DNA of 30,028 nucleotides from a virus, in IMG/VR virus record IMGVR_UViG_3300005613_000300, positions 1-30,028 of that record; one strand, written 5' to 3'. Under the pieces are notes generated by a model that ran no database searches, was not told the origin of the DNA, and was given only the letters and a program-made list of their open reading frames with translations. The translations under genes and the position numbers were made by a program. Below, in pieces: positions 3,691 through 30,028 of this stretch. Every line of letters starts with the position of its first letter. Positions within the stretch are counted from its first letter, which is position 1.

Positions 3691-3724
3691 AAACAAATAA
3701 AAATTATAGATATTTAATTTTAAG

Positions 3725-5056: not shown

Positions 5057-5058
5057 AT

Positions 5059-5274
5059 ATGATTACAGAACACATTATAGACGAGAAGTTTAAGTATGTT
5101 AGATTTTACATAGACCATCTACCTTTTGAGATTAAAACCGAAATTGAAAATGACCCCAATACAATTGTGGCTCTACGAAGGTTAGAACTTGAAAGGGATT
5201 TTAAAGAATATGGGGATTACTTACATTCCAATCTTTATACAGAAAATATTAAACCTGAAAATATAGAAGAATAA
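5059..5274 (+). CDS. Small hypothetical protein in fibre cluster (71 aa)
   Basis: Short charged protein (MITEHIIDEKFKYVRFYIDHL...) rich in Glu and Lys, with no membrane segment, signal peptide or known motif. It is packed between two fibre-like genes: two bases after the previous stop and one base before the next start, so it is very probably translated. Fibre chaperones are often small and sit next to fibre genes, but nothing in this sequence proves that role. Confidence 0.65.
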   Translation: MITEHIIDEKFKYVRFYIDHLPFEIKTEIENDPNTIVALRRLELERDFKEYGDYLHSNLYTENIKPENIEE

Positions 5275-5275
5275 T

Positions 5276-6745: not shown

Positions 6746-9745
6746 ATGCAAGAGGCTACAATAAAGATTAATATTGATTCTAAAAACGCAACTAATAATG
6801 TAGGTAAATTACAAGATGATTTACAAGCCACAAGACAAGAATTAGATAGGTTGATAAAGACCTATGGTGAAAACTCCAAACAAGCCGACAATATGAGAAA
6901 AAGTTTGGCAGGTTTAGAAATTGAAATGGGTAAGTTGGGTGTTGCAACAGATGAAGCGGTAGGTTCAACTCAATCATTAAAAACTGAATTACGAAAACTA
7001 ACTGATGAATTAGCAACACTTGAACCTGGATCAGCAAGGTTCAAAGAATTATCAATTAGAGCGAGTGAATTAAAAGACCAAATAGAAGATACGGATGGTG
7101 TTGTAAGACAATTAGCAGGTAATTTTACTGAAAGATTAACAAGAGGTATTAGTTCTGCTGTTGGTATTGGTGTTGCTGGCTTTCAAGCGATGACGGCAGC
7201 ACAAGCCTTATTTGGTGTTGAAAGTGAGGAACTACAAGAAACTATGGTTAAATTACAGGCGTTATTAAACCTGTCCCAAGCCATAGAAACATTTGGGGGA
7301 TTGGATCAAAAGATAGTTGAGATAAAATCTTTATTTAGTTCTTTAACAACCGCAACACAAGCCCAAGCCGTAGCACAAACAGAAACCGCAACAGCAACAG
7401 CCGCCACAACATTAGCGATGGAGGGTGAGGCTGTCGCAGCAGGTGGGGCAGCAGCCTCAACATCAGTATTAGGGGTCGCCTTAAACGCATTACCATTAGT
7501 GGCGATTGTATCAGCAATAGGACTACTTGTCGCAGGTTTAATTAGTTATGCTTCTAAATCAGGTGATGCCGCAAAAGAAGAAGAAAAAAGAATTAAGAAC
7601 CTTGAAGAATTAAAGAAAAGACAAGAAGAAGAAAAAAAGTTTGTTGGTGAAAGTTCAGCCCAATATCTTAATTTAGTTTTTCGTCTAAAAGAAACAAATA
7701 AGAACTCCAAAGAAAGAAGTGATTTAATTAAAGAAATCAATACAACTTACGGAACTACTTTAAAAAATATCCAAGATGAAACCGCTTTTCAAGACCAATT
7801 AAACTTATCTGTTAAGGAATATATCGCCCTACAATTAGCAAAATTCAAACAATCTGCTAATGAAGAAAAATTAAAGAAATTATATGGTGAATTAGCCGCA
7901 GCAGAGAAAGAACAAACAAAGGCGATGAACGCAAGAAAAAAGGCGGCAGAAGCTTTAATTGGTATTACAGACCAATATGAAGGTAAAATTAGAAATGAAG
8001 ATGACGCATTAAGAGTTTTAGCCAGAACCTCCGCTGGATATAACGCAGATATAGCAAAAACAAATTCAACATATCGGGCATTAGAAGAAAGAATATCAAA
8101 TTTAACAATCACAAATAGGGATTTAGAAAAAACTATTGATGGTTTAACTGTATCAGGTAAAAAATATGAAGTTCAAACTAAAACTACAACAGGTAGTGTT
8201 GGTGATGTTAATGAAGAAACTGAAAAATATGCTGGTTTATTAGAAGAAGTCAAAAATAAGATTGATAGAGAAATTGCCGCTCAACAAACATTAGATAGAA
8301 TTACAAGTGAAAGGGTTGATAATACCCTTAAAAAAGAAGAAGACGCAATCAATAAACAATATGGGGACGAAAGACAAAATGTTATTGATAGGGCAATTGA
8401 AAGGGAGATACAAGCAACCGAAGAAAAGTTTAAAGTAGAAGGTAAAACCGAAGAAGAATATAGAACCCAAGTTCAAGCAATCAGGGATAATTACCAAACT
8501 TATTTACTTGAAAGTGAGAAAAACTTATTAACCCAATTAGAAACATTTAGACAAGAGGATTTAACCAATCTTCAAAATAGTTATACCCTACAAGAACAAA
8601 TTGTTTTAAACAATACCCAACAGATTTTAGAAAATACAAGGTTATTAGAATTAGAATATCAAAAACAAGCTGAAATTGATGCTGTTGATGCGACAACCCA
8701 AACCGAAGAAGTAAAAAATCAAAAGAAAATAGAGGTTAGAAAAAAGTATGCCGATCAGGAAATACAACTAATCAAATCATTAGGTCAAAAAGAACAACAG
8801 GCATTAGATTTACAACTTCAACAGACACTAACAAAAGAAGGGATTACAATACAAGAAAAAGAACAAGCCCAAGCCAAGTATAGTCAAGACACAATTAAAC
8901 TCGCACAGGACACGGCAGACAAAATAAATGATATAAATGAAGGTATTAAATCCCCAATACCTGAAACTCCACAAGCAAAAATTGATGAAGGTGTGGCGAT
9001 GGCTTCTAAATATGTAGATGCCATAGCGTCCCTTTATAATCAATTATCTAATGTAATCCAATTAGCAACTGAAAATCAATTTGGGGTTAGACAAGATAAA
9101 ATTGATGAAGCATATAGATTAGAAAAGGAATCATTAGAAGGGGCGTTAGAAGAAGAAAGAGTTAGTAGAGAACAATATGACGCTGATATAGAAAGGTTGG
9201 ATCAAAAACGATTTGAAGAGGAAAAACAATTAAGAAAAGAACAATTTGAAATCAGTAAGAAATTACAAATATCAAACGCAATCATTCAAGGAGCCCAAGC
9301 GGTATTAGCGGCATTTTCATCAGGGGCTGCCGTTCCAATTGCGGGTATTACTCTGGGGCCGATAAACGCGGCAATCGCAGGAGGTATAGCGGCAGCTCAA
9401 TTAGCGGTAATCGCCAACCAACAATTTACGGCAGCAGAAGGTGGGGTTGTTCCTGGTAATGGGTCTGGTAATATTGATTCAGTCCCTTCGTTATTGGCAC
9501 CAGGAGAGGCTGTAATCAATTCACAATCAGCACAGATGTTCCCCAATCTATTATCACAGATTAACGAAGCTGGTGGTGGTAAATCATTAGTTCCTGACCT
9601 TCCACCAAGAAGCGCGTCTCAACAGACACCAAATGTATTCGTTCAAAAAGAAATGAACCAACCAATAAAGGCCTTTGTTGTGGAAACTGATATAAGTGAT
9701 TCACAACGAAGAATTAACCGCATTAAACAATCGGTAGAGTTTTAA
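6746..9745 (+). CDS. Tail tape measure protein (999 aa)
   Basis: Longest tail-side helical protein: coiled coil in residues ~1-120, an Ala-rich segment and a hydrophobic stretch at ~241-269 (VLGVALNALPLVAIVSAIGL followed by LVAGLISYA), then several hundred residues of Glu/Gln/Lys coiled coil. The C-terminus has the hallmark GG.VPG.GSGNIDSVPSLLAPGE pattern (about residues 898-925) typical of tape measures. These proteins set tail length at roughly 1.5 angstrom per residue, so a tail near 150 nm would be expected. Unusually, the frameshifted chaperone that normally precedes the tape measure lies far away at 24259. No lytic transglycosylase or peptidase motif is visible. Confidence 0.93.
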   Translation: MQEATIKINIDSKNATNNVGKLQDDLQATRQELDRLIKTYGENSKQADNMRKSLAGLEIEMGKLGVATDEAVGSTQSLKTELRKLTDELATLEPGSARFKELSIRASELKDQIEDTDGVVRQLAGNFTERLTRGISSAVGIGVAGFQAMTAAQALFGVESEELQETMVKLQALLNLSQAIETFGGLDQKIVEIKSLFSSLTTATQAQAVAQTETATATAATTLAMEGEAVAAGGAAASTSVLGVALNALPLVAIVSAIGLLVAGLISYASKSGDAAKEEEKRIKNLEELKKRQEEEKKFVGESSAQYLNLVFRLKETNKNSKERSDLIKEINTTYGTTLKNIQDETAFQDQLNLSVKEYIALQLAKFKQSANEEKLKKLYGELAAAEKEQTKAMNARKKAAEALIGITDQYEGKIRNEDDALRVLARTSAGYNADIAKTNSTYRALEERISNLTITNRDLEKTIDGLTVSGKKYEVQTKTTTGSVGDVNEETEKYAGLLEEVKNKIDREIAAQQTLDRITSERVDNTLKKEEDAINKQYGDERQNVIDRAIEREIQATEEKFKVEGKTEEEYRTQVQAIRDNYQTYLLESEKNLLTQLETFRQEDLTNLQNSYTLQEQIVLNNTQQILENTRLLELEYQKQAEIDAVDATTQTEEVKNQKKIEVRKKYADQEIQLIKSLGQKEQQALDLQLQQTLTKEGITIQEKEQAQAKYSQDTIKLAQDTADKINDINEGIKSPIPETPQAKIDEGVAMASKYVDAIASLYNQLSNVIQLATENQFGVRQDKIDEAYRLEKESLEGALEEERVSREQYDADIERLDQKRFEEEKQLRKEQFEISKKLQISNAIIQGAQAVLAAFSSGAAVPIAGITLGPINAAIAGGIAAAQLAVIANQQFTAAEGGVVPGNGSGNIDSVPSLLAPGEAVINSQSAQMFPNLLSQINEAGGGKSLVPDLPPRSASQQTPNVFVQKEMNQPIKAFVVETDISDSQRRINRIKQSVEF

Positions 9746-9752
9746 TATTTAT
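9746..9752 (+). promoter_or_regulatory. TATTTAT motif before the capsid maturation operon
   Basis: TATTTAT overlaps the end of the tape measure gene leader region and lies five bases before ATG 9758, which opens the protease-holin-scaffold-capsid block. The same motif and spacing recur before other first genes. It may be a -7 promoter element giving leaderless mRNA, or an AU-rich translation signal. Confidence 0.4.
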
Positions 9753-13502: not shown

Positions 13503-13526
13503 CCCCCTGTAATAAGGGGGTTTTTT
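13503..13526. terminator. Bidirectional terminator between convergent genes
   Basis: CCCCCT pairs with AGGGGG around a GTAATA loop, followed by six T on the + strand. It separates the + strand tail-tube-like gene from the - strand 72-aa gene, whose stop is at 13525. Confidence 0.78.
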
Positions 13527-13743
13527 ATATCCACTCATCTTCAAATGGGTCATCGTTATAGATTGTCTCCATTACATTACCGAATACCTCATCAAATTCG
13601 TCGTAGAAACCATTATTTACTTGTGATTGGGTATAACCTATTGGAATAGGTTTTTCGTCCTCCACAGACCAAGTTTCGTAGTTAAACAATACTGCCACAT
13701 AACCCCTTCGGTTAAGTTCTTTAATCATTTCATTTGTCGTCAT
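13525..13743 (-). CDS. Antisense small acidic protein (72 aa)
   Basis: Acidic protein (MTTNEMIKELNRRGYVAVLF ... DPFEDEWI) with 15 or more Asp/Glu residues, no membrane segment and no motif that I recognise. The N-terminal half suggests a helix-strand unit. It is encoded against the surrounding late genes, with a convincing Bacteroidota-type promoter upstream and a shared terminator downstream, so it is probably expressed by the host polymerase independently of the late operon. Small, acidic, independently expressed phage proteins are often host-takeover or anti-defence factors, but that is only a guess here. Confidence 0.7.
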   Translation of the reverse strand: MTTNEMIKELNRRGYVAVLFNYETWSVEDEKPIPIGYTQSQVNNGFYDEFDEVFGNVMETIYNDDPFEDEWI

Positions 13744-13770: not shown

Positions 13771-13801
13771 CAAATATAAATACTTTGGTTGATATAAACA
13801 A
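13771..13801 (-). promoter_or_regulatory. Bacteroidota-type promoter for the antisense gene
   Basis: On the - strand there is TTG (13801-13799), a 20-base spacer, and TATATTTG (13778-13771). This matches the TTG / TAnnTTTG consensus of the primary Bacteroidota sigma factor and lies 27 bases before the start codon at 13743. Confidence 0.6.
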
Positions 13802-13815
13802 ATAATTCATTAAAA

Positions 13816-13822
13816 TATTTAT
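13816..13822 (+). promoter_or_regulatory. TATTTAT motif before the portal block
   Basis: TATTTAT lies four bases before ATG 13827, the first gene of the portal-connector block, with no ribosome binding site between. Same spacing as at 9746, 22117, 24247 and, on the other strand, 28525. Confidence 0.45.
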
Positions 13823-13826
13823 AGAT

Positions 13827-14201
13827 ATGATTACAATTCCTAACTATACCACAGGTTTAACACCATTTACATTAGTTGAAATGACTACTCTAACTGGAAA
13901 TACCAATTACATTTTGGATTTGTTTGGAAAACAAAAAGACGATACTACCCTTTTATTTTTGACTGGGGACACTTCACAGAACACTATGAGGTATAACTAT
14001 TATCCAATAGATTTAACCCCTTACAATCTAATAGAAGGACAATATAATTACAGAGTATGGCAAACATCAGGTAATACTTTATCAGTTTCAGGTCTAACAA
14101 CCAACGATATTGTTGAAGATGGTTTGTGTTTTATTTATAATAGCGGATCAACACAATTCCAAACATACTCTCAACAACAAACTAAATATGTTTTTGAATA
14201 A
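13827..14201 (+). CDS. Hypothetical virion-block protein upstream of portal (124 aa)
   Basis: Short protein rich in Thr, Tyr and Asn (MITIPNYTTGLTPFTLVEMTT ... GNTLSVSGLTTNDIV), predicted mostly beta, without charged clusters, signal peptide or enzyme motifs. The portal gene starts three bases after its stop, so it belongs to the head-assembly transcription unit. A minor capsid, decoration or head-completion role is plausible from position only. Confidence 0.6.
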   Translation: MITIPNYTTGLTPFTLVEMTTLTGNTNYILDLFGKQKDDTTLLFLTGDTSQNTMRYNYYPIDLTPYNLIEGQYNYRVWQTSGNTLSVSGLTTNDIVEDGLCFIYNSGSTQFQTYSQQQTKYVFE

Positions 14202-16685: not shown

Positions 16686-17150
16686 TTAATAAATACTTGA
16701 TAAGTCAATTTTTTTAACTTTGAAGTATTTTTTTATTTCTTTTTCATTTCTTGGAATCAAATAACCTCTGGTGTTTGATCCGTCGTCCCCACTTTGATAA
16801 GTTGTTAAAAAGGTATATTCTTCAATTAAGTTTCTTAAATCCTCAGTTGTAATATACCATACTTCTTTTAGATTATAAAAGTAATTTACCCACCAGTCGG
16901 CTTCTGTTGTTGAAATACCTGATGGTCTATTTTTATATTCGTATTCAACAAATATATTTTCATCTTTATCACTTTTAACATAGAAGTCCGTTTTAACCTC
17001 AAAAGACTTCATTATATCGTCTTTTTGAAGTAATAGGTCATATTTACCATCATCTCTTTTTTCAACTCGTGTATAACCATTATTTTCATATAGAAATGAT
17101 ATTTTAATTTCAGTTTCATTTCCTTTTCTTAAATCACTCCAAAAACTCAT
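16686..17150 (-). CDS. PD-(D/E)XK-type nuclease (154 aa)
   Basis: The core reads G-K-Y-D38-L-L-L ... S-F-E51-V-K53-T-D, the D-(X)n-E-X-K signature of PD-(D/E)XK nucleases, preceded by helical residues with Glu at 13. After it come FVEYEYKNRPSGISTTEADWW and a Trp/Tyr-rich strand, a pattern I associate with phage resolvase-like nucleases. Possible roles are Holliday junction resolution, removal of branches before packaging, or host DNA attack. It is the second gene of a two-gene - strand operon, with its start overlapping the stop of the sigma-like gene (ATGA). Substrate is unknown. Confidence 0.65.
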   Translation of the reverse strand: MSFWSDLRKGNETEIKISFLYENNGYTRVEKRDDGKYDLLLQKDDIMKSFEVKTDFYVKSDKDENIFVEYEYKNRPSGISTTEADWWVNYFYNLKEVWYITTEDLRNLIEEYTFLTTYQSGDDGSNTRGYLIPRNEKEIKKYFKVKKIDLSSIY

Positions 17151-17800
17151 AACAATTTAATTTCGTAATGTTTATGTTTCAATTTACCCATCAGTAAATA
17201 ATTATTTAATGTTTCTTGGCATATCCCCATCTTTTTACTTAATTCTTTTTTTGATTTGAAGGGTAATGTTTTTCCATTCTCATATATTAATAAATACTTC
17301 GGTTTTGTGGAAACTTTCGTTTTTAATTTATTTTTTAAGTTTCCATAGATTTTATATATCTCTTCTTTTTCTAAATTAAGTTCTTTTGTTAGTGATGAAG
17401 GTTCTTTTCCTGTTAGAATATGAAATAGTAATTCTTTTTCAATAAAGTTAAAATCCTTTGATTTAAAGACACTTTGAAGTTGTTTATATCTTATCCCCTT
17501 ATCTATGTCTCGTTCTATTGTAGGAAAGGTTAAAATCATATTCTCATCAAACTCTGGTGAGTAATCTACTAAATTCTTTTTAACAAATAATCTATAATGA
17601 ATTTCATTTTTAATACTTATGAAAATATAATTCTTATTCTTTTCTATGATTGGGGATAATATACCTTCTTGTTCCTTCTTAAATAATTTAATTAAAATAT
17701 CTTGGATTAAATCTTCTTTATCTTCTAGTCTCATTCTGTATTTGTTAAAATACTGATTAAATAAAGAATTAATATATTTATAAAGTTCTATATAATTCAT
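17147..17800 (-). CDS. Sigma-70-like protein with NUMOD-like C-terminal DNA-binding domain (217 aa)
   Basis: Residues ~9-80 resemble sigma-70 region 2 (LEDKEDLIQDILIKLFKKEQ, then NYIFISIKNEIHYRLFVKKN). Residues ~118-160 resemble region 4 (FIEKELLFHILTGKEPSSLT and LEKEEIYKIYGNLKNKLK). The last ~50 residues (YLLIYENGKTLPFKSKKELS then MGICQETLNNYL) look like a NUMOD-type helix-turn-helix, normally found in homing endonucleases. It could direct host RNA polymerase to phage promoters. It is the first gene of the - strand operon, with TAAATATA (TATATTTA in its own direction) at 17816-17823 and a duplicated element upstream. The match is weak enough that a general DNA-binding regulator is a fair alternative. 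Confidence 0.55.
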   Translation of the reverse strand: MNYIELYKYINSLFNQYFNKYRMRLEDKEDLIQDILIKLFKKEQEGILSPIIEKNKNYIFISIKNEIHYRLFVKKNLVDYSPEFDENMILTFPTIERDIDKGIRYKQLQSVFKSKDFNFIEKELLFHILTGKEPSSLTKELNLEKEEIYKIYGNLKNKLKTKVSTKPKYLLIYENGKTLPFKSKKELSKKMGICQETLNNYLLMGKLKHKHYEIKLL

Positions 17801-17814
17801 ACTGGATACTGGTT

Positions 17815-17823
17815 ATAAATATA
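17815..17823 (-). promoter_or_regulatory. TATATTTAT motif upstream of the leftward sigma-like gene
   Basis: On the - strand the sequence reads TATATTTAT, ending 14 bases before the start codon at 17800. It is the leftward arm of the divergent control region. Confidence 0.4.
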
Positions 17824-17855
17824 TCTATTTTTAGGTCTTAATAAATAAGTCCCTG
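17823..17855. repeat. Duplicated intergenic element, copy 1
   Basis: Starts ATCTATTTTT and ends AAATAAGTCCCTG. Its right part (17834-17855) is an imperfect inverted repeat, GGTCTTA...TAAGTCC, with a five-base centre. Copy 2 is at 17880-17919. Confidence 0.65.
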
Positions 17856-17879
17856 CTAGTGCTAGTAGCTTTAAGAACC

Positions 17880-17919
17880 ATCTATTTTTGAGGCTGATAA
17901 TGGCTTAAATAAGTCCCTG
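17880..17919. repeat. Duplicated intergenic element, copy 2
   Basis: Shares ATCTATTTTT at its left end and AAATAAGTCCCTG at its right end with copy 1, with about seven extra bases between. The right part (17902-17919) again forms GGCTTA..TAAGTCC. Confidence 0.65.
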
Positions 17920-18015
17920 AGAAACACCAATTATCATTTAACTTACTAATAAATACATCAATTATTTTAAAAGTTCAACTATATTTAAAAAAAAAACTAA
18001 TTTTTTTTATCTAAA

Positions 18016-18027
18016 CGACATATTTAT
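18016..18027 (+). promoter_or_regulatory. CGACATATTTAT motif before the rightward operon
   Basis: Extended copy of the recurrent motif, ending six bases before ATG 18034 and followed by TAAA. It is identical over twelve bases to the copy at 24242-24253. Confidence 0.55.
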
Positions 18028-18033
18028 TAAAAG

Positions 18034-18267
18034 ATGAACGAAAAGTTAAACTTCATTTTAGATTCAATTAAGAACAATCCAAACGATAGTGATTTAGGTG
18101 CAGAGATAAGAGCTATGAAACTTACTCTATTCCAAGAAGCTATAACCTCACAAGACCCCTTATTTGAACTTTTATTTGCCCTTGTGGATATATTCCCCAA
18201 CGATAGTGAGTTAGGGTCTAAGATGAGAGGAATACAACATAAAATCAAAGAATACATTGATGCTTGA
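18034..18267 (+). CDS. Small protein with an internal duplication (77 aa)
   Basis: The protein contains two similar segments, NNPNDSDLGAEIRAM (residues ~14-28) and IFPNDSELGSKMRGI (~53-67), each followed by a short helix, suggesting an internal tandem duplication of a helical hairpin. It has no cysteine or enzyme motif. It is the first gene rightward from the divergent control region, overlapping the second sigma-like gene by eight bases, so the two are probably co-translated. A partner or anti-sigma role is an untested guess from that coupling. Confidence 0.68.
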   Translation: MNEKLNFILDSIKNNPNDSDLGAEIRAMKLTLFQEAITSQDPLFELLFALVDIFPNDSELGSKMRGIQHKIKEYIDA

Positions 18268-18790
18268 TAATATACTAAAAGAAATTAGTTCAAAGGGGAC
18301 TATATATGATGAAATTATAAATAACATTATCCAACCTAATTTCCACTTAAAACCAGAACTGATCAGCGAAATAGCCTTATCATTTTTAGAAAATAGAGAA
18401 AAAATAGAAATGGTAATAGAACAGAATTATTTTCTATATTATTTTATTAGAACCGTAAAGAACCAAATACATTCCAAAACAAGTGGTTTTTATAAGAATA
18501 CACGAATTAAAGAACACATACCCATAGATAATATCCACTTCATAGATGAAAGTGATTTAGAACAAAAAAAACAAATAGAAGAACTATACCAGTTAATAGA
18601 CAAATCATACATCAAAATACCAAAAACATATTTCCAAGAATACTTATGGCATGAGTATTACACTTTAAATAAAACCCATAGACAGATTGGAATGGAAAAT
18701 GATATAAGCCATTGTTTATCCTTCCACGAAATTAAAAAAATCAAAGAAAAATTAATAGAAGAAATTAAAAAACAATTTGATTCTTTTTAG
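18260..18790 (+). CDS. Sigma-70-like regulator (176 aa)
   Basis: ATG 18260 is chosen; a TTG three bases earlier is the only alternative upstream. Residues ~20-85 resemble sigma region 2 of small Bacteroidota phage sigma factors, with FHLKPELISEIALSFLE and the distinctive YYFIRTVKNQIHSKTSGFYK. Residues ~120-170 (YFQEYLWHEYYTLNKTHRQI ... SFHEIKKIKEKL) have the helix-turn-helix character of region 4. It would recruit host RNA polymerase to phage promoters, presumably those carrying the CG(A)NATATTTAT motif. It is transcribed away from the other sigma-like gene. The region 2 resemblance is better than for the leftward protein. Confidence 0.62.
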   Translation: MLDNILKEISSKGTIYDEIINNIIQPNFHLKPELISEIALSFLENREKIEMVIEQNYFLYYFIRTVKNQIHSKTSGFYKNTRIKEHIPIDNIHFIDESDLEQKKQIEELYQLIDKSYIKIPKTYFQEYLWHEYYTLNKTHRQIGMENDISHCLSFHEIKKIKEKLIEEIKKQFDSF

Positions 18791-18808
18791 AAATACTCGT
18801 ATATTTAT
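18777..18808 (+). promoter_or_regulatory. Promoter-like TTG-N20-TATATTTA before the 60-aa gene
   Basis: TTG at 18777-18779, then 20 bases, then TATATTTA at 18800-18807 (within CGTATATTTATTAAAC). It resembles the TTG/TAnnTTTG consensus except for the last base, and lies 18 bases before ATG 18826. Confidence 0.5.
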
Positions 18809-19317: not shown

Positions 19318-19326
19318 GTTGTATAA

Positions 19327-19356
19327 TTGATTTTTTATCAACAACGATATATTTAT
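19327..19356 (+). promoter_or_regulatory. Promoter-like TTG-N18-TATATTTA before the methyltransferase operon
   Basis: TTG 19327-19329, 18-base spacer, TATATTTA 19348-19355, within CGATATATTTATTAAA. It begins 10 bases after the T-tract of the terminator and lies 21 bases before ATG 19377. Confidence 0.55.
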
Positions 19357-19376: not shown

Positions 19377-19748
19377 ATGATAAAAAAAGAATATTACGAC
19401 AGGGTATTATATCTCACCCAACTCAAACGAGTAAGTAAAGATGAGGTTAAAGAGATGGAATCAATCATTAGAACCTTCAACGAAAGATTTAGTTTATGTA
19501 GTAAGTGTGGAGCACAGATTAGACACGCTCAACGAATACTAACAAATTGGTTAAACCAACAAGAAGTAATTGAAGATGTAATAGCATCTATTGAACCAAA
19601 CGATGAACCAGTATTGGTTAAAGAATCCAATTTTGATATTGATGTTGATGATGTTGAGGCAGAAAAAGTTGGTTGTTTGAAATGCCGATCAAAGAAAAAA
19701 ACAACAACCACAACCACTAAAACCACAAGAAAACCAAAAATTAAGTAA
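19377..19748 (+). CDS. Zinc-ribbon-like small protein (123 aa)
   Basis: Contains two separated Cys pairs, CSKCGAQIRHAQ (residues ~41-52) and CLKC (~100-103), which could bind one zinc ion, and an N-terminal helix (YYDRVLYLTQLKRVSKDEVK). The tail is a Lys/Thr-rich low-complexity stretch, KKKTTTTTTKTTRKPKIK, probably disordered and DNA-attracting. Its stop overlaps the start of the large methyltransferase gene by one base, so the two are coupled. A recruitment role for the methyltransferase is possible but not shown. Confidence 0.62.
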   Translation: MIKKEYYDRVLYLTQLKRVSKDEVKEMESIIRTFNERFSLCSKCGAQIRHAQRILTNWLNQQEVIEDVIASIEPNDEPVLVKESNFDIDVDDVEAEKVGCLKCRSKKKTTTTTTKTTRKPKIK

Positions 19749-21199
19749 TGGAACAAGTAAGATTATTAAAAGGTAATAACCTTGACCTGTTAAAAACATT
19801 AGAAGACAATTCAATAGATAGTATTGTAAGCGACCCGCCATACGGATTATCATTTATGAATAAGAAATGGGATTACGATGTTCCATCTGTGGAGTTATGG
19901 AAAGAGGTTTTAAGGGTGTTAAAACCAGGTGGGCATGTCTTATCATTCGGGGGGACAAGAACATATCACAGAATGGTTGTAAATATGGAAGATGCGGGTT
20001 TTGAGATTAGAGATAGTATTTCATATATGTATGGTTCAGGGTTTCCAAAGTCCCATAACATCGGTAAGGCTGTTGATAAGTTAAGTGGTAATGAAAGAAC
20101 ACAAACAGAATATATCGCCCCTGATGGTAAAAAAAGAACTGGTGTTTTAACTGGTGATGAATACTATAAAACAGAAGGGGACACATATAATAATGATGTA
20201 AGGTATAAAACCAAAGGTAATAGTGAATGGGAAGGTTGGGGAACGGCTCTTAAACCTTCTATGGAGTTAATCTGTTTGGCAAGAAAACCTTTAACTGAAA
20301 AGTCAATTGCCGAGAATGTATTAAAACACGGAACAGGTGGAATTAATATAGATGATTGTAGAGTAGGTAGTGAAACAAGAAACAATGGTAATAGTTTAAG
20401 AGATATTAGGGGTGGTTCATTAGACGCACAAATATCATCAACAAGAGAAAGATTAGAAAGAGAAGATAGTATTGTAGAAGGTAGGTTCCCAGCCAATACC
20501 ATATTGGAATGTATATGTGATGAGGTAATACCTGGTGAGAATAAAGGATTAAAGAAAGAAACTTTTGAAAATTATGGTAATGGTGAATTGGGGAAAAAAG
20601 ATGGAAGAAAAACACAACCAACACCAAAAGAAATAGAAGGGACTTGGTATAAAGACAAAGGAGACATTCACACCAACCCTGAATGTCCTTGTTATATTTT
20701 AGACAAACAGAGTGGGGTTAAACAATCTACAAGAAGAAGGGCAGAAATAATGCCATTACCTAAAACTCCATTTAACGGAGAAAAAACTGATAAAGGAACT
20801 GATAGAGGTTTTGATGATAAAGGGGGAGCATCAAGGTTCTTTTACACAGCCAAAGTATCAAAGAAGGAACGAAATATGGGGTTAGATGATTTTGAGGAAA
20901 AATCCACTAGAAAATGGAAAGGTGGTATGAAACTGACTGGTAGTGGTAATGAAAGAGTTGAGGTTGGGAGAAATATTCATCCTACGGTGAAACCAATAAA
21001 CCTAATGACTTACTTATGTCGTCTAATAACACCAAAAGGAGGTGTAGTCCTTGATATGTATATGGGTTCAGGTTCTACTGGTATATCAGCACTACTTGAA
21101 GGATTTAAGTTTGTGGGGATGGAGATGGACGAGGACTACTTCAACATAGCAGAAGCAAGAATAAAAAACTACGAACAATATAGACAATTTAAGAAATGA
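19748..21199 (+). CDS. DNA methyltransferase, DPPY type, beta class (483 aa)
   Basis: Motif IV is SDPPYG (residues 28-33) near the N-terminus and the SAM-binding motif I is LDMYMGSGSTG at about 435-445 near the C-terminus. That order is the beta class, and DPPY points to N6-adenine methylation. HPTVKP precedes motif I, as usual. Between the motifs lie about 330 residues of mostly charged sequence likely to hold the target-recognition region. The gene overlaps both neighbours by one to four bases. It could protect phage DNA from host restriction or from the phage's own nuclease. The target site cannot be read from the sequence. Confidence 0.85.
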   Translation: MEQVRLLKGNNLDLLKTLEDNSIDSIVSDPPYGLSFMNKKWDYDVPSVELWKEVLRVLKPGGHVLSFGGTRTYHRMVVNMEDAGFEIRDSISYMYGSGFPKSHNIGKAVDKLSGNERTQTEYIAPDGKKRTGVLTGDEYYKTEGDTYNNDVRYKTKGNSEWEGWGTALKPSMELICLARKPLTEKSIAENVLKHGTGGINIDDCRVGSETRNNGNSLRDIRGGSLDAQISSTRERLEREDSIVEGRFPANTILECICDEVIPGENKGLKKETFENYGNGELGKKDGRKTQPTPKEIEGTWYKDKGDIHTNPECPCYILDKQSGVKQSTRRRAEIMPLPKTPFNGEKTDKGTDRGFDDKGGASRFFYTAKVSKKERNMGLDDFEEKSTRKWKGGMKLTGSGNERVEVGRNIHPTVKPINLMTYLCRLITPKGGVVLDMYMGSGSTGISALLEGFKFVGMEMDEDYFNIAEARIKNYEQYRQFKK

Positions 21200-21375
21200 T
21201 TAAAAACTTATTTACAAGAAAACCAATATATCAAATTACATTAACATCCCTTCCAACCAAAGATGAGTTTGAAAAAATTAAAAAAGATTTGAAAGACGAA
21301 CTTGGGGATGAATACAAAGTTGTTATTGTGGTAGATACATATAAAGTTCATACTGAAACAAAAATATTAAAATGA
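21196..21375 (+). CDS. Small protein between two methyltransferases (59 aa)
   Basis: Open frame from ATG 21196 to TGA 21373-21375. It overlaps the upstream methyltransferase stop and the downstream methyltransferase start by ATGA on both sides, the strongest evidence that it is translated. The sequence MIKNLFTRKPIYQITLTSLP continues with a Lys/Asp-rich helix (DEFEKIKKDLKDELGDEYK) and ends in a beta strand (VVIVVDTYKVHTETKILK). The alpha/beta pattern suggests a small folded domain. No family recognised. Confidence 0.7.
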   Translation: MIKNLFTRKPIYQITLTSLPTKDEFEKIKKDLKDELGDEYKVVIVVDTYKVHTETKILK

Positions 21376-22100
21376 TTATACACGGAGATTGTATTGAAGA
21401 ATTATCAAAGATGGATAATGAAAGTGTTGATTGTATAATCACATCTCCTCCATATTGGAAGGGATTTGCTTATGAAGCATATTTTAATTCTTACGCTCAA
21501 TATATTAGATGGAGTGTTAAGTGGTTAAAAGAATGTAAAAGAGTATTAAAACCAACAGGAACATTATGGTTAAATGTTATTAATGATAGTGAGGTCTCAA
21601 CAAGAGCATTTGAATTATTAAATATAGCAACAGAAGAATTGATGTATAAATTACACGATACGATTATATGGTATAGATTTAATCAACAACCCTGTAATTC
21701 AAATAGACAACTAACCAATCAGGTAGAATATGTATTTATGTTAAGGCATACATCAGCAGGGGTTGAATTAAATAAAGAAGCAGCATATAACCAAAATCCA
21801 AATATATTTAAAACAAAGAATGTTGGTAATGTATGGGAAATACCTTTTAATCAGGGGGATAAAGTATCCAAAAATGATTTTGGTAGAAAAGAAACTAAAT
21901 CACAATACGGACATTCTGGCTTTCCAACAGCATTAGTTGAGACCTGTATGTTATTATCAACCAAAGAAGATGATATAGTATTAGATTGTTTTGCTGGATC
22001 AGGGACGACAGGTTTAGTAGCAAAAAAACATAATAGAAAATATGTTATGATAGAAAAAGACAAATCATATTATAACTTAATAAATGAAAGATTAAAATAA
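21372..22100 (+). CDS. DNA methyltransferase, SPPY type (242 aa)
   Basis: Motif IV is TSPPYW (residues 24-29) and motif I is LDCFAGSGTTG (about 204-214), giving a beta-class layout; SPPY is typical of N4-cytosine methyltransferases but also occurs in some N6-adenine enzymes. LKPTGTLWLNV and the HNRKYVMIEKDKSYYNLI motif-II/III region are intact. At 242 residues it is compact, with a small target-recognition region. It begins inside the stop of the 59-aa gene. Role in DNA protection is inferred. Confidence 0.83.
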   Translation: MIIHGDCIEELSKMDNESVDCIITSPPYWKGFAYEAYFNSYAQYIRWSVKWLKECKRVLKPTGTLWLNVINDSEVSTRAFELLNIATEELMYKLHDTIIWYRFNQQPCNSNRQLTNQVEYVFMLRHTSAGVELNKEAAYNQNPNIFKTKNVGNVWEIPFNQGDKVSKNDFGRKETKSQYGHSGFPTALVETCMLLSTKEDDIVLDCFAGSGTTGLVAKKHNRKYVMIEKDKSYYNLINERLK

Positions 22101-22116
22101 CAAATATAAAGAATAA

Positions 22117-22127
22117 TATTTATTTAT
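22117..22127 (+). promoter_or_regulatory. TATTTATTTAT motif directly before TerS
   Basis: Two overlapping TATTTAT units abut ATG 22128; the first (22117-22123) has the common four-base gap to the start. It marks the head of the terminase block. Confidence 0.4.
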
Positions 22128-22502
22128 ATGAGTAATTTAAATGAAAGACATAAAGCATTTTGTGATGAATACCTGGCTAATGGTATGAACGCAACCCAAG
22201 CGTATAAAAAGGTTTATAAGGTGAATGATAAAGTGGCGGGAGCAAGTGGGGGTAGGTTGCTGGAAAATGTTAAAATAAAAGAATACCTTAAACAAGAGGG
22301 AGAAAAGACAGCAGAACGACTACAAATAACCAAAGAACAACTCCTATTAGATTTGGAGGATATTAAAAATCGTAATATGGGTGTTAGGGATTCATTATCA
22401 ATTAAAGCAATTGAGGTGATGAGTAAGATGAGTGGTTTTGATGCCCCGATCAAACAGGACATCAATATAACAGAACAACCATTATTACCTGACGATGAAT
22501 AA
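22128..22502 (+). CDS. Terminase small subunit (124 aa)
   Basis: The opening LNERHKAFCDEYLANGMNAT followed by QAYKKVYKV and SGGRLLENVKIKEYL is the classic helix-turn-helix start of the terminase_2 small subunit family. The rest is a helix-rich oligomerisation region (ITKEQLLLDLEDIKNRN), ending in an acidic tail (LLPDDE). It binds the packaging site and feeds DNA to the large subunit. Length is normal for a short family member. It heads a block in which a methyltransferase-like gene separates it from TerL. Confidence 0.88.
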   Translation: MSNLNERHKAFCDEYLANGMNATQAYKKVYKVNDKVAGASGGRLLENVKIKEYLKQEGEKTAERLQITKEQLLLDLEDIKNRNMGVRDSLSIKAIEVMSKMSGFDAPIKQDINITEQPLLPDDE

Positions 22503-23043
22503 AAATATGAGTAATTGGTTAAAGACTGGTAATCAATTTAATATTAAAGATGAGTATTATACTCCACCCATTTTAGTAGAACCAATTATACAATATGCGA
22601 AAGGAATTATATGGTGTCCTTTTGATACAGAAGATAGTGAGTTTGTAATTCAATTAAAAAAGAATGGTAATGAAGTAATACATAGTCATATATGGGAGGG
22701 TAAAGATTTTTTTGAATATGAACCAGAACAATATGATATGATTATATCCAACCCACCTTTTAGTAGAAAGTTAGAAGTATTAAAAAGATTATACGAATTG
22801 AATAAACCATTTGCTATGGTTTTGGGATTACCAATATTAAATTACCAAGAAGTAGGTAGTTTTTTTTTAGATAAAGAATTACAACTTTTAATTGTTGATA
22901 AAAAAGTTTCTTTTGATGGGAATACAGCATCATTTAACAATTCTTATTTTTGTTATAGAATGTTGCCAAAAGATTTAATGTTCGTTCATTTAGAACATAA
23001 TAATAGTAAGAAATACTATAAAGGTTCAAATATGAGTAAATGA
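22495..23043 (+). CDS. NPPF-type methyltransferase-like protein between TerS and TerL (182 aa)
   Basis: Motif IV is SNPPFS (residues 85-90), as in N6-adenine methyltransferases. Motif I is not the usual FxGxG but IIWCPFDTEDSEF (38-50), which I recall from small phage proteins labelled adenine methyltransferase that also sit near terminase genes in other phages. The LNKPFAMVLGLPILNYQEVG segment follows as expected. It overlaps TerS by eight bases and TerL by four. ATG 22507 is a possible alternative start (MSNWLKTGNQF), with an AATAAAAAT leader. Activity is uncertain because motif I is weak. Confidence 0.7.
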   Translation: MNKNMSNWLKTGNQFNIKDEYYTPPILVEPIIQYAKGIIWCPFDTEDSEFVIQLKKNGNEVIHSHIWEGKDFFEYEPEQYDMIISNPPFSRKLEVLKRLYELNKPFAMVLGLPILNYQEVGSFFLDKELQLLIVDKKVSFDGNTASFNNSYFCYRMLPKDLMFVHLEHNNSKKYYKGSNMSK

Positions 23044-24221: not shown

Positions 24222-24241
24222 TAAAAAACAAAACAAATAAA

Positions 24242-24253
24242 CGACATATTTAT
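24242..24253 (+). promoter_or_regulatory. CGACATATTTAT motif before the tail chaperone gene
   Basis: Identical over twelve bases to 18016-18027 and preceded by the same AA. It ends five bases before ATG 24259, with no TTG at the usual distance upstream, so it may depend on a phage sigma factor. Confidence 0.55.
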
Positions 24254-24258
24254 AGTAG

Positions 24259-24873
24259 ATGATTAAAGTAGAAATAGAAATTGATGGTGAATTAACAACT
24301 TACTCGTTCCCGACATCTTGGGACGACATAACAATATCCCAATATCAAAGGTTATATGAAATACCAAAAAGGGAGAGTAATGATTTATTTTATTATTTTG
24401 ATGTATTACACGCCTTATCCAACATAGAACATAAGGTTCTTCAACAAATGAGTTTTAGTGATTTTAAACAACTAACAGAACAACTACAATTCATTTATAC
24501 CCCCGTTGAAAATAAGAAACTAACGGCAATAGAATTGGAAGGGGATATGTATTATATTCACACAGATTTTAATAAATACACAGCAGGAGAGATTATCACC
24601 ATAGACACAATACTTCGTCAATACAACCACGAGTATATTAAGTGTATGACTGATTTACTATGTGTGTTTTTAAGAAAGAAAGAGAATGATAAGGTAGAAA
24701 TATTTACAACTGACTTACTAAATAGAAAAGAGTTATTTTCCAAGATTAAAATTGGGGATATAAATAGTGTGTTCGGTTTTTTTTTGTCTGGAAAAAATTC
24801 GTTAGAGACCAATATAAAGGACTCTATAAACGAGAACTCCCCCAAAAAGAAAGTAAGTTTAAAAGAAAATTAG
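24259..24873 (+). CDS. Tail assembly chaperone, short form (204 aa)
   Basis: The protein opens MIKVEIEIDGELTTYSFPTS followed by WDDITISQYQRLYEI, a pattern seen in Bacteroidota phage tail chaperone-like proteins, and is helical with a central beta pair (LEGDMYYIHTDFNKYTAGEI). Near its end the message contains a T9 run, so a minority of ribosomes are expected to shift into the frame of the 87-residue extension. The short form then has a charged C-terminus (SPKKKVSLKEN). Such chaperones coat the tape measure while the tail tube polymerises. It follows TerL and its own CGACATATTTAT motif, far from the tape measure gene, which is not the usual arrangement. Confidence 0.68.
   Translation: MIKVEIEIDGELTTYSFPTSWDDITISQYQRLYEIPKRESNDLFYYFDVLHALSNIEHKVLQQMSFSDFKQLTEQLQFIYTPVENKKLTAIELEGDMYYIHTDFNKYTAGEIITIDTILRQYNHEYIKCMTDLLCVFLRKKENDKVEIFTTDLLNRKELFSKIKIGDINSVFGFFLSGKNSLETNIKDSINENSPKKKVSLKEN
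24777..24783 (+). other. Slippery heptamer T TTT TTT for -1 frameshifting
   Basis: The nine T at 24777-24785 contain X_XXY_YYZ in register with the 24259 frame: T, then codons 24778-24780 and 24781-24783. A one-base slip back enters the frame open from 24768 to 25046. A second, weaker A_AAA_AAT site lies at 24792-24798. Confidence 0.6.
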
Positions 24874-25555: not shown

Positions 25556-25696
25556 ATGGGTATTAGAATAGTTAGAGACGGACAAGTAGTCCAAGAAGTT
25601 CCCAAAACTCAATTAGAACTAAAATTAGAGGAATTGGAAAGAAGAATTGAAGAATTAGAAAATAAGAATAAAACAAAAAAGAAAAAAAATATTTAA
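25556..25696 (+). CDS. Tiny coiled-coil protein (46 aa)
   Basis: Open frame from ATG 25556 to TAA 25694-25696, three bases after the terminator-like gene and four bases before the next fibre gene. It starts MGIRIVRDGQVVQEVPKTQL, a short beta hairpin, then forms one heptad coiled coil (LELKLEELERRIEELENKNK) and ends in a Lys run. The tight packing and regular heptads support real translation. A role as trimerising or tethering peptide for tail parts is speculative. Confidence 0.6.
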   Translation: MGIRIVRDGQVVQEVPKTQLELKLEELERRIEELENKNKTKKKKNI

Positions 25697-27580: not shown

Positions 27581-28072
27581 ATGTCTAAAAAACTAATTAA
27601 AAGAAGGGCGCTTGATGAGTTTGCCCTTCTTTTTGTTAAGACACTTAAAGAACAACTCATCAACAACAAACCCTTTTCTAAAAGGGCATCAGGTCGTCTT
27701 GTTGAATCAATCAATATTAAAATTGATGAAAAGGAAGGTGGGGAAACAATCACCATATTAGCAGAGGATTACTTAAAGTTTGTTGATCGGGGGGTTAGTG
27801 GAACAATTAGAAAATACAATACCCCATATTCTTATAAGAGTAAAAAACCCCCCATTAATGTAATACTTCAATGGACGAGATTAAAGGGTATTCCACAAGA
27901 GGCAGCATATCCAATTCAAAACAAAATATTTAGATTTGGTCTTAAACCAACTAATGTTATTGATAAGACATTTAGAGAAATACAATACAGGTCTAAATGG
28001 ATTAACAGGTTTGAGGAAGAAATCACAAGTGAAATTATAGATACATTCAAAAAAACACTTGAATCTAAATAA
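27581..28072 (+). CDS. HK97 gp10-like head-tail/tail completion protein (163 aa)
   Basis: The core reads AEDYLKFVDRGVSGTIRKYN, then YSYKSKKPPINVILQWTRLKG and a PIQNKIFRFGLKPTNVIDKT helix, the layout of HK97 gp10-type proteins (Y...v..G......P...w...kg.......l......G..p..fi). These lie at the head-tail joint or start tail tube assembly. The first 18 codons contain a strong hairpin (27599-27633). Its 3' end overlaps the antisense HNH gene by eight bases. Confidence 0.75.
   Translation: MSKKLIKRRALDEFALLFVKTLKEQLINNKPFSKRASGRLVESINIKIDEKEGGETITILAEDYLKFVDRGVSGTIRKYNTPYSYKSKKPPINVILQWTRLKGIPQEAAYPIQNKIFRFGLKPTNVIDKTFREIQYRSKWINRFEEEITSEIIDTFKKTLESK
27599..27633. terminator. Terminator-like hairpin inside the start of the gp10-like gene
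   Basis: AAAAGAAGGGC pairs perfectly with GCCCTTCTTTT over 11 bp, with a 13-base loop, and the right arm ends in T's. It lies 18 bases after ATG 27581, inside codons 7-18. It could attenuate transcription of the downstream tail genes or lower translation of this one. Confidence 0.45.
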
Positions 28073-28514
28073 TGTGGTATTTTTGTTTGGCGATTAAATA
28101 TGATTGTCGGGCATCTTCTTCATTATCATATCTTCCAAGATAAATGGTTTTGTCGTTAATATGTATTTGAGCTTTCCACTTATTTCTTGTTTTATCCCAA
28201 GTATAACCCTTGTAATTGTTATTGAAACAATTTTGTTGATGATTAACCATTCGTAGATTAGAAATCCTATTATCACTTTTATCTCTATTGATGTGGTCTA
28301 ACATTTCAAACTCAACATTACCATAAGTCATATACCAAGCGAAGTGATGCCCATATACAGAATGTTTCCAATTACGACAATTACCAAATTGAATATATCC
28401 TTGTTTATTATTTCTAATAATTTCATTTCCTTTAATACCATATATTTTACCAGTTTCAGCATTATAGGTATATCCTTTTTGTTTTAAGATTTTACATTTT
28501 TCTAATCTATCCAT
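28065..28514 (-). CDS. HNH homing endonuclease with AP2 domain (149 aa)
   Basis: Starts at MDRLEKCKILKQK; the upstream in-frame ATG at 28583 would add 23 residues through the promoter-like AT-rich segment. The HNH core is H56-H57-F-A-W, then D73-H74-I-N-R-D and SDNRISNLRMV with Asn81. Residues ~100-145 (YKGYTWDKTRNKWKAQIHIN ... GRYDNEEDARQSY) are an AP2 DNA-binding domain, a common partner. The gene is a mobile unit inserted antisense between two tail genes. It has TATATTTATTATT five bases before its start and TTG 20 bases further, so it carries its own promoter. Its stop overlaps the gp10-like stop. Confidence 0.88.
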   Translation of the reverse strand: MDRLEKCKILKQKGYTYNAETGKIYGIKGNEIIRNNKQGYIQFGNCRNWKHSVYGHHFAWYMTYGNVEFEMLDHINRDKSDNRISNLRMVNHQQNCFNNNYKGYTWDKTRNKWKAQIHINDKTIYLGRYDNEEDARQSYLIAKQKYHII

Positions 28515-28518
28515 AATA

Positions 28519-28550
28519 ATAAATATATCAAAAACAGATAATAATTTCAA
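28519..28550 (-). promoter_or_regulatory. Promoter of the HNH gene, with near-leaderless spacing
   Basis: On the - strand: TTG at 28550-28548, 20 bases, TATATTTA at 28527-28520. It matches the TTG/TAnnTTT(G) pattern, and with a normal 7-base distance the transcript would begin at or within a base or two of ATG 28514. Confidence 0.5.
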
Positions 28551-28567
28551 ATATTTAATAATAAAAA

Positions 28568-30028
28568 ATGAGTTATTCCGCAATTACACTTCCGCACGAT
28601 TATATGGCAGGTTATAGTAGTATTCCATTAAAGGTATTTGATACAAACTACGACCAACTAAATCAATATAAGTATGTGGTAAATGCTGTGTATGATGATG
28701 TATTCATTACAACAGCAATCACATATTCATATCAAGGTCAATTACAAACCAAACTAACATCAGCAACCCCACATACATTTAAAAAGGGGGATTCCATTTT
28801 ATTAGATGATTATAACAATAATATCTACACAGGGTATTATAATATTTTATCAGTTGTTTCATCTACGGAGTTTGTAATCAATTTGTTTCTACAATCACCA
28901 ATACCATCTTATCCATTAAGGGCATCAAAGTTTTATAAATGGAAGTTGTCCCCCGATCAAGACGGGTATGGTAAATTGGATATGAGTAATGTGATGAAGG
29001 ACTTGGTGTCCCAAAATCTAACGGGAACACCTGTGAATTATGGTTTAATTTATGACGCACCTGATACTAAAAAGTGTTTTGGGTTATTAGCAGGTTATGA
29101 AGCTCAATATAAGTTTGAGTTTGAAGATAATGCCTTTTTAACAGGGGGTTTTGTTGGGTTTTATAATTCATCAATCACATCGTTAAATGGTATTCCATTT
29201 CAAATAGGACAAGTTATTCAAATTCAACAAAACGAAGTGGCTTGGAACTATACAGGTATAACTCAAAATGGGGCTTATGCTCAATACAATTCTTCTTCAC
29301 CTCACGGATTTTCAGCAGGACAACCAATACAAGTTCAAGGACAGACAACTTTAACGCAATACAACGGAAATACAACAGTATTATCAGTCCAATCAACAAC
29401 ATCTCTAACCACTTGGCAATCATATTGGGGTAGTTCAACAGTAGCAGGAACAATATGGGGACAACCAAGACCTGAATATAACACAACTGCTGTAATCACA
29501 GACATATATGTTGATGGTGTATTGGGAGTTGTTATTGAAACCAACTTGGCATTTGCTGGTTCATCACCTGTTATATCAGGGTCAATAACTTATCCTGGTA
29601 ATCAAACCCCCGAAATACTAACGGAATATAGTGATTACAACGCATTTTGTATCTATAACGCCCATATCAATAGAAAAGATTATTCTATTACGGCATTTGA
29701 CCCTTATGTAATTCAAAATAGGGCTTTTTCAGGTAATTCTATACCCACAATATTTCAACCTGAAACTTGTTATAGAATTGAAACAAACACAATAGGGTTC
29801 TTATTATTTCACACCTCATCGGCATCACTTATAGATGGGGTTATTTATGAATTCTTTGATTCAAACTATTCATTAATAGGTAAAATCAAATTAGATAAGA
29901 ATACAACAAGTCAAACTGACTTCTATGCCCCATTTGGATTAAATCAAATATCTAATAGTTCTTATGTGGATATTACTAATACCTTTTCATCTTATTCTGG
30001 TAATGTGAATACTTATGTTATGTATGGT
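28568..30028 (+). CDS. Tail tip/distal tail structural protein, 5' part (continues at 1-609)
   Basis: This frame starts at ATG 28568 (MSYSAITLPHDY) and is still open at the window edge. Joined through the 123-base overlap it ends at the TAA at 607-609, giving a 648-residue protein. It is rich in Ser, Thr, Asn, Tyr and Gln and looks mainly beta-structured, with no catalytic motif that I recognise. It lies just upstream of the 1025-aa hub-like protein and upstream of the fibre genes and tape measure, so a distal tail or baseplate role is inferred from context. The leader is A/T-rich, with TATTTAA at 28552-28558 and an A-run before the ATG. The antisense HNH gene ends its 5' side 53 bases upstream. 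The specific function is not certain. Confidence 0.75.
   Translation, partial: MSYSAITLPHDYMAGYSSIPLKVFDTNYDQLNQYKYVVNAVYDDVFITTAITYSYQGQLQTKLTSATPHTFKKGDSILLDDYNNNIYTGYYNILSVVSSTEFVINLFLQSPIPSYPLRASKFYKWKLSPDQDGYGKLDMSNVMKDLVSQNLTGTPVNYGLIYDAPDTKKCFGLLAGYEAQYKFEFEDNAFLTGGFVGFYNSSITSLNGIPFQIGQVIQIQQNEVAWNYTGITQNGAYAQYNSSSPHGFSAGQPIQVQGQTTLTQYNGNTTVLSVQSTTSLTTWQSYWGSSTVAGTIWGQPRPEYNTTAVITDIYVDGVLGVVIETNLAFAGSSPVISGSITYPGNQTPEILTEYSDYNAFCIYNAHINRKDYSITAFDPYVIQNRAFSGNSIPTIFQPETCYRIETNTIGFLLFHTSSASLIDGVIYEFFDSNYSLIGKIKLDKNTTSQTDFYAPFGLNQISNSSYVDITNTFSSYSGNVNTYVMYG
29906..30028. repeat. Terminal direct repeat (circular contig overlap), right copy
   Basis: Exact repeat of bases 1-123. Position 29906 equals position 1, giving a circular unit of 29,905 bp. 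It is most likely an assembler overlap on a circular or circularly permuted genome, which also fits headful packaging. Confidence 0.97.

Follow-up and report, generated by a model that had tools for sequence, protein, structure and literature searches.

Two adjacent ECF-like sigma factors and two promoter classes predicted in a small Bacteroidota-type phage

Phage sigma cascades are textbook knowledge for the large Bacillus phages. Late promoters of phage T4 are served by the phage sigma factor gp55 together with its co-activator gp33; these promoters are dominated by a TA-rich -10 box, gp55 has no typical region 4, and T4 late transcription is tied to replication. In phage SPO1, the middle sigma factor gp28 and the late sigma factor gp34 both act on the host core RNA polymerase and are indispensable (PMC9429907). 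Here we describe a pair of neighbouring sigma-like genes, L and R, in IMG/VR virus record IMGVR_UViG_3300005613_000300, of which the whole stretch of 30,028 nucleotides was analysed (hereafter the window). A first reading of its letters (the original prediction) had proposed two sigma-70-like proteins that diverge from one control region and set up a two-stage switch on host RNA polymerase in a small phage without polymerase. Our computational analysis shows that two sigma-like factors and two promoter classes exist in this phage. The best model, to which we give a probability of roughly 0.57, is a two-sigma transcription module, in which we infer that L reads one promoter class (class A) and R the other (class B).

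Sigma-like identity and conservation of the pair

The coordinates and lengths originally assigned to L and R are correct (Table 1), and the 233-bp gap described between the two divergent genes (17801-18033) exists. However, it separates L from sm, not L from R. The 77-aa gene sm, which had been overlooked together with the NUMOD1 tail of L, opens a rightward operon. Because R overlaps the 3' end of sm by 8 nt, the control region in the gap serves the sm-R operon, and R is its second gene. Homologues of sm stand immediately ahead of R in many relatives; elsewhere, short genes of other families occupy that place. A Pfam and PHROGs scan gave no family match for sm.

Profiles and models indicate that L and R are sigma-like and of extracytoplasmic function (ECF) type in layout; binding of core RNA polymerase and promoter-specific initiation are their predicted functions. 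Searched singly against Pfam, L matched Sigma70_r2 (E=0.078) and NUMOD1 (E=6e-4), both of them weak evidence from single sequences, and R matched no sigma model above the gathering score. At the family level, 21 of 31 L members (best 9.5e-12) and 14 of 45 R members (best 1.4e-5) have a match to PHROG 1740 ('RNA polymerase sigma factor'); in Pfam, weak single-sequence matches to Sigma70_r2 were obtained for 10 of the 31 L relatives (best 3.7e-5) and to r4_2 for 3. The L and R families are colinear across region 2, linker and region 4 (hhalign P=2e-4). A profile of L that had iterated into the R family was not trusted; its replacement, built without R members, still matches members of the R family at 5e-6 to 4e-3.

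AlphaFold2 (AF2) models reached a predicted local distance difference test (pLDDT) score of 86 for R and 76 for L. When these models were compared with the PDB using Foldseek, ECF sigma factors (SigL, SigH, RpoE, AlgU, SigW) and other sigma factors headed the list for both proteins, at probabilities up to 0.98 (0.93-0.98 for L against ECF factors), and no confident unrelated fold appeared. The R model matches region 4 of Escherichia coli RpoE (2h27) with a Foldseek TMt of 0.71, and phage 'sigma24 homologues' among viral models (BFVD). The region-2-like and region-4-like stretches first noticed in both proteins are thus supported by ECF sigma folds, PHROG 1740 and colinear families. R has the ECF arrangement of region 2, linker and region 4, without region 1.1 or 3, in 176 aa (ECF range about 160-200 aa); as no Pfam sigma model exceeds its cut-off, we label it sigma-like rather than a curated family member. 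In L, regions 2 and 4 are found by Foldseek, PHROG 1740 and, weakly, Pfam. At its C-terminus, L has a NUMOD1 domain (about residues 173-202), for which Foldseek returned the homing endonuclease I-HmuI (1u3e) at a probability of 0.98; of nuclease domains (HNH, GIY-YIG), none was found in the L of the window, which has the DNA-binding NUMOD1 part alone.

Single-sequence phmmer runs of L and R against the PDB gave chance matches only, the R profile had no match in the PDB, and the L profile found mostly helix-turn-helix (HTH)/LuxR-type proteins in region 4; its match to a 'CAP REPEAT' entry (6e-7, 35 residues of the region 4 stretch) is unrelated and was set aside. A tblastn search of 50,697 annotated phage genomes matched neither L nor R.

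The pairing itself is conserved. Of the distinct relatives, 26 have 2.5 kb or more of sequence on the 5' side of R, and in 25 of these a second sigma-like gene adjoins R. This gene is L-type in 20 of them, carries a Pfam region 2 match in three (L020, L072 and L025, the last at 1.9e-10), encodes a region 2 plus 4 protein in L026, and in L099, a contig binned as Sulfurovum, encodes an ECF-like protein with a NUMOD1-like tail (tail judged by eye). The sole exception, L036, has an HNH-like endonuclease gene (judged by eye) in that slot. In L-type phages, the pair is divergent in 28 of 34 cases. R is much better conserved than L (mean column identity of 55% vs 32%). The L-type proteins of L023 (175-804) and L024 (715-1554) carry an HNH-like N-terminus, and pieces of homing endonucleases are repeatedly associated with the second-sigma slot. 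HNH genes also lie directly ahead of L in several relatives. In L099, three sigma-like genes follow each other in a row (2154-5302), one of them with the NUMOD1-like tail; its Sulfurovum bin (Campylobacterota) reflects either a wider host range of the phage group or a binning error.

Two promoter classes and their putative readers

The same promoter-like motif had been reported in both directions of the gap, and TATTTAT indeed occurs there at three sites: 18021-18027 (+), 17955-17949 (-) and 17821-17815 (-). In the window, 8 of the 37 gene starts have the word ATATTTAT in the 45 nt ahead of them (expected 0.33), and none has its reverse complement there; across the phage group ATATTTAT precedes 77 of 603 unique gene starts, vs 13 for the reverse complement. 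As controls, we used four Bacteroidota phages of the same or similar G+C (FPSV-S2, 11b, FCL-2 and phi10:1). In these, ATATTTAT was found in 1 of 277 upstream regions, and TAnnTTTG was found instead (25 sense vs 10 antisense).

It is very improbable that the boxes are promoters of the host primary sigma factor, or a mere AT-rich bias of start regions, with L and R acting as ordinary HTH regulators. ATATTTA does partly resemble TAHHTTTG, the -7 box of Flavobacterium (PMC6847099), sequences near gene starts are AT-rich in these phages, and the Pfam matches of the single window proteins are weak. However, the phage box has A where TAHHTTTG has its G, a base that hardly varies in the host (PMC6847099), and the phage words are strand-specific, exactly spaced and not seen upstream of genes in the four controls, which bear TAnnTTTG. 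The 37 upstream regions of the window hold TAnnTTTG once in sense and four times in antisense orientation, which does not fit host primary-sigma promoters, and phages with the sigma pair have no TAnnTTTG excess, unlike the controls. Moreover, the fold matches of L and R are sigma factors.

The common -10 box, TATTTA(T/A), is accompanied by either of two -35 words: a (T)GACTTTT-like word 13-14 nt away in class A, and AAACA 15 nt away in class B. The count of AAACA peaks at exactly 15 nt from the -10 box (55 sites vs a mean of 3.3 per position) and that of ACTTTT at 13-14 nt (34 sites vs a mean of 1.3); both peaks are absent in the four control phages. When the -35 word alone is fixed, the 7-mers that follow are ATATTTA (60 vs 1.4 expected) and TATTTAT (20 vs 0.4). 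We take the class A -35 box GAACTTTT to resemble the GAAC core of ECF -35 boxes.

The two classes serve different genes. Genes for sigma factors, and regulatory genes close to them, have class A promoters, and those for head, packaging and tail have class B promoters, with 33 A to 1 B in the sigma module and 0 A to 33 B among late genes; the classes thus go with gene groups of apparently different stage, the stage being taken from gene function. In the window, class A sites lie ahead of sm-R, the L leader and two further genes, and class B or B-like sites lie 5-10 nt ahead of seven transcription units (Table 1). Exact class B sites also occur at two positions of L099, a contig left out of the definition of this class: at 5319, and at 8068 ahead of what appears to be the homologue of the gene just past the large terminase gene. 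For the existence of two classes, L099 and the peaks in spacing are safer evidence than a test of the split by location.

The two-stage switch on host RNA polymerase that was first envisaged is supported by these data, in that two classes with one -10 box and different -35 boxes divide the sigma module from the late genes. In the two-sigma module, host RNA polymerase would transcribe L first. L would then load the host core on class A promoters, those of its own leader and of the sm-R operon, in a middle stage with positive feedback, and R would subsequently direct the host core to class B promoters, switching on all late operons; a phage polymerase would not be needed. The putative late sigma gene stands under a class A promoter, and we infer the reader of that class from indirect evidence: the more strict signal (class B) is matched with the more strict protein (R), and the looser signal (class A) with the looser protein (L). 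The original prediction had also suggested that each factor may control the other. Since the L leader and sm-R both carry class A promoters, one factor, most simply L, could control both instead.

The same observation opens the reverse order, in which R would read class A, thus autoregulating itself and switching on L, and L would read class B and switch on the late genes. We consider this doubtful. Class B is more rigid, with its 15-nt spacing in 64 sites vs 16 nt in 14, and this fits the conserved R better than the replaceable L, although the argument is one of plausibility. Somewhat less doubtful, yet still unlikely, is a single sigma factor, R, reading both classes. L would then be an accessory protein, acting as a co-regulator on DNA, as a competitor or as an anti-sigma-like partner, and the -35 boxes would set strength or timing only. 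The -10 box is identical in both classes, R is highly conserved while L evolves fast and can be replaced, and phages 7-11 and phiEco32 have been reported to have one sigma factor with long (late) and short (middle) motifs (PMC4331800). On the other hand, the -35 words are unrelated, have slightly different fixed spacings and are split by gene class, as expected for two region 4 domains. In addition, L retains regions 2 and 4, and its replacements in L020, L025, L072 and L026 are themselves sigma-like.

Several observations weigh against the two-sigma module as we propose it. Both promoter classes persist in relatives whose L has given way to other sigma types, and more or less in the most divergent loci as well, so that neither co-varies informatively with L. 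The class A -35 word is about constant across L- and S-type phages, and roughly so in L026 and L099, and an attempt to assign class A to L through co-variation of this word with the type of second sigma was non-discriminating. No host-type TAnnTTTG, as a promoter for the first round of L transcription, was found ahead of L on its strand within the gap. The Fisher P of 2.5e-18 for the split by location is overstated, as class words and location zones were picked after part of the data had been viewed, and it is inflated by orthologous promoters in relatives, which are non-independent events. Finally, Foldseek E-values are modest for both L and R (about 0.02-0.03), and the models have low global template modelling (TM) scores (0.2-0.5) and predicted TM (pTM) values of 0.39-0.47. 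Flexible linkage of the two domains keeps the global TM scores low and plausibly accounts for the modest E-values too.

Further details of the promoters deserve mention. Three -10 boxes end 5-7 nt before a start codon (18020-18034, 13815-13827 and 24246-24259), and messages starting from such boxes might be nearly leaderless. A conserved CCTCAAAAATAG was considered as a possible opposite-strand host promoter (TATTTTTG at 17883) and dropped, as TAnnTTTG is not kept in relatives. The sole gene of the window with a host-type -7 box ahead of it (TATATTTG) encodes a 72-aa protein, lies among structural genes (13525-13743, -) and points away from a divergent class B promoter; it may be transcribed early, by the host.

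Leader RNA and genomic context

A conserved leader element is located between the leftward class A promoter and L (Table 1). More than 15 distinct relatives carry it ahead of their second sigma gene and in the orientation of that gene, be it L-type, S-type or HNH-fused. The element folds into two hairpins on the L strand. The first three pairs of stem P1 form in 17 of 17 sequences, with covariation at two of them, pair 2 being G-C, C-G, A-U or G-U and pair 3 A-U, G-C, U-A or U-G; the second hairpin has a G-rich loop in most relatives. P1 covariation was obtained by folding each sequence and pairing the arms by position; for L020 and L072, the pattern ended early and their rows pair worse than they should. 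The window copy folds no better than shuffled sequences (z 0.47), and several relatives do (z down to -2.9). RNAalifold found no pairs in a MAFFT alignment of the leaders, probably because length variation misaligns the arms, and Rfam gave no match at the gathering threshold, with chance-level ones only at a loose E-value. The leader probably tunes the amount of L made.

The genome of about 29.9 kb is complete and circular or terminally redundant, because the window ends in an exact direct repeat of 123 bp (1-123 and 29906-30028) and the open reading frame from 28568 reads across the contig junction into 61-609. No polymerase was recognised among its proteins scanned with Pfam and PHROGs, in agreement with the early view of a phage lacking one. 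A Bacteroidota host is suggested by the large terminase, which shares 52% identity with its counterpart in Flavobacterium phages.

Behind L lies a 154-aa gene whose PD-(D/E)XK-nuclease-like reading rests on a D..ExK pattern judged by eye; in L005, L020, L022 and L025 this gene sits ahead of the R operon, on its strand. A gene encoding an HNH endonuclease with an AP2 domain (28065-28583, -; HNH_3 E=3e-12), on the strand opposite to the adjoining late genes, is likely to encode a homing endonuclease. Three DNA methyltransferase genes (19748-21199, 21372-22100 and 22495-23043, all +) are clustered between the sigma module and the large terminase gene.

Table 1. Positions of the sigma module, its leader and the promoters of both classes in the window
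Feature	Position	Strand	Remarks
Class B promoter, AAACA-N15-TATTTAA, ahead of gene 3725	3691-3717	+	
Class B promoter, AAACA-N16-TATTTAT, ahead of prohead protease gene 9758	9725-9752	+	
Class B promoter, AAACA-N15-TATTTAT, ahead of gene 13827 and portal gene	13796-13822	+	
154-aa PD-(D/E)XK-nuclease-like gene, behind L	16686-17150	-	PHROG 13596 (E=8.7e-14), a PHROG without assigned function
L, 217 aa, ECF-like sigma factor (regions 2 and 4) with C-terminal NUMOD1	17147-17800	-	
Structured leader RNA element, about 140 nt	17809-17945	-	nhmmer E=6.9e-22 in the window
Second ATATTTAT, directly ahead of L, without recognisable -35 box	17815-17822	-	Also in L002
Class A promoter of L leader, TTGAACTTTT-N13-TATTTAT	17949-17978	-	Score 15.1; same place in relatives
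Class A promoter of sm-R, CTAATTTTTT-N14-TATTTAT	17997-18027	+	Score 11.2, model trained without the window; equivalent ahead of sm in most relatives
sm, 77 aa, first gene of sm-R operon	18034-18267	+	Overlaps start of R (18260-18267)
R, 176 aa, compact ECF-like sigma factor, conserved member of the pair	18260-18790	+	ATG at 18260
Class A-like promoter of gene 18826, TGATTCTTTT-N14-TATTTAT	18778-18808	+	
Class A promoter of gene 19377, ATTGATTTTT-N14-TATTTAT	19326-19356	+	Score 15.3
Class B-like promoter, AACA-N14-TATTTAT, ahead of small terminase gene 22128	22099-22123	+	
Class B promoter, AAACA-N16-TATTTAT, ahead of gene 24259, just past large terminase gene	24226-24253	+	Homologue in L099 has exact class B site
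Class B-like promoter, AACA-N14-TATTTAA, ahead of gene 25701	25672-25696	+	
Class B promoter, AAACA-N15-TATTTAA, ahead of gene 28568	28532-28558	+	Gene runs across contig end into 61-609

Significance and comparison with described systems

Taken as a whole, we see an even chance that the window represents an undescribed and widespread group of small Bacteroidota-type phages in which a complete middle-to-late programme is run by two adjacent ECF-type sigma factors through promoters with a common -10 box and differing -35 boxes. In such a group, R would be fixed, and the other slot could be taken by sigma factors of different origin, often fused to DNA-binding domains of homing endonucleases, under a single structured leader RNA that survives the swaps. 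A literature search, limited to open-licence papers, returned nothing relevant on sigma factors with NUMOD1 or on sigma-controlled Bacteroidota phages.

A complete genome of about 30 kb thus appears to hold a whole regulatory code, with two factors and two promoter sets readable from the sequence. It poses the question of how a -35 box alone can separate two sigma factors that share one -10 box, and is an example of a sigma slot whose occupant can be exchanged while the RNA leader is conserved. It would also provide promoter-sigma pairs that are portable among Bacteroidota, a group with promoters strongly unlike those of E. coli.

Among cellular proteins, L and R are most reminiscent of the ECF sigma factors RpoE, SigL, SigH, SigW and AlgU, with which they share the compact combination of regions 2 and 4 and their best fold matches. 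They differ in falling below the Pfam cut-offs, and the NUMOD1 domain of L is foreign to ECF factors. That domain recalls I-HmuI and other NUMOD1-HNH homing endonucleases, as does the HNH-like N-terminus in L023 and L024; however, L has no nuclease domain, and its NUMOD1 is joined to a sigma-like protein. Compared with T4 gp55, R differs in having a region 4, and its putative promoters have a -35 box. Like phiEco32 and 7-11, our phage combines a phage sigma factor with promoters that can be read from the genome sequence, long (late) and short (middle) in those phages (PMC4331800); whereas they have one sigma factor and an anti-sigma factor, two sigma-like factors, two -35 words and one -10 box are found here. 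The Bacillus phages SPO1 and SP10, with one middle and one late phage sigma factor acting on the host core (PMC9429907), resemble the present phage in its predicted function. Those phages are much larger, whereas the present one is of Bacteroidota type, with 30 kb of DNA and with ECF-like factors that are adjacent and mostly divergent. A common -10 box, a replaceable second factor and a conserved leader RNA further set it apart from SPO1.

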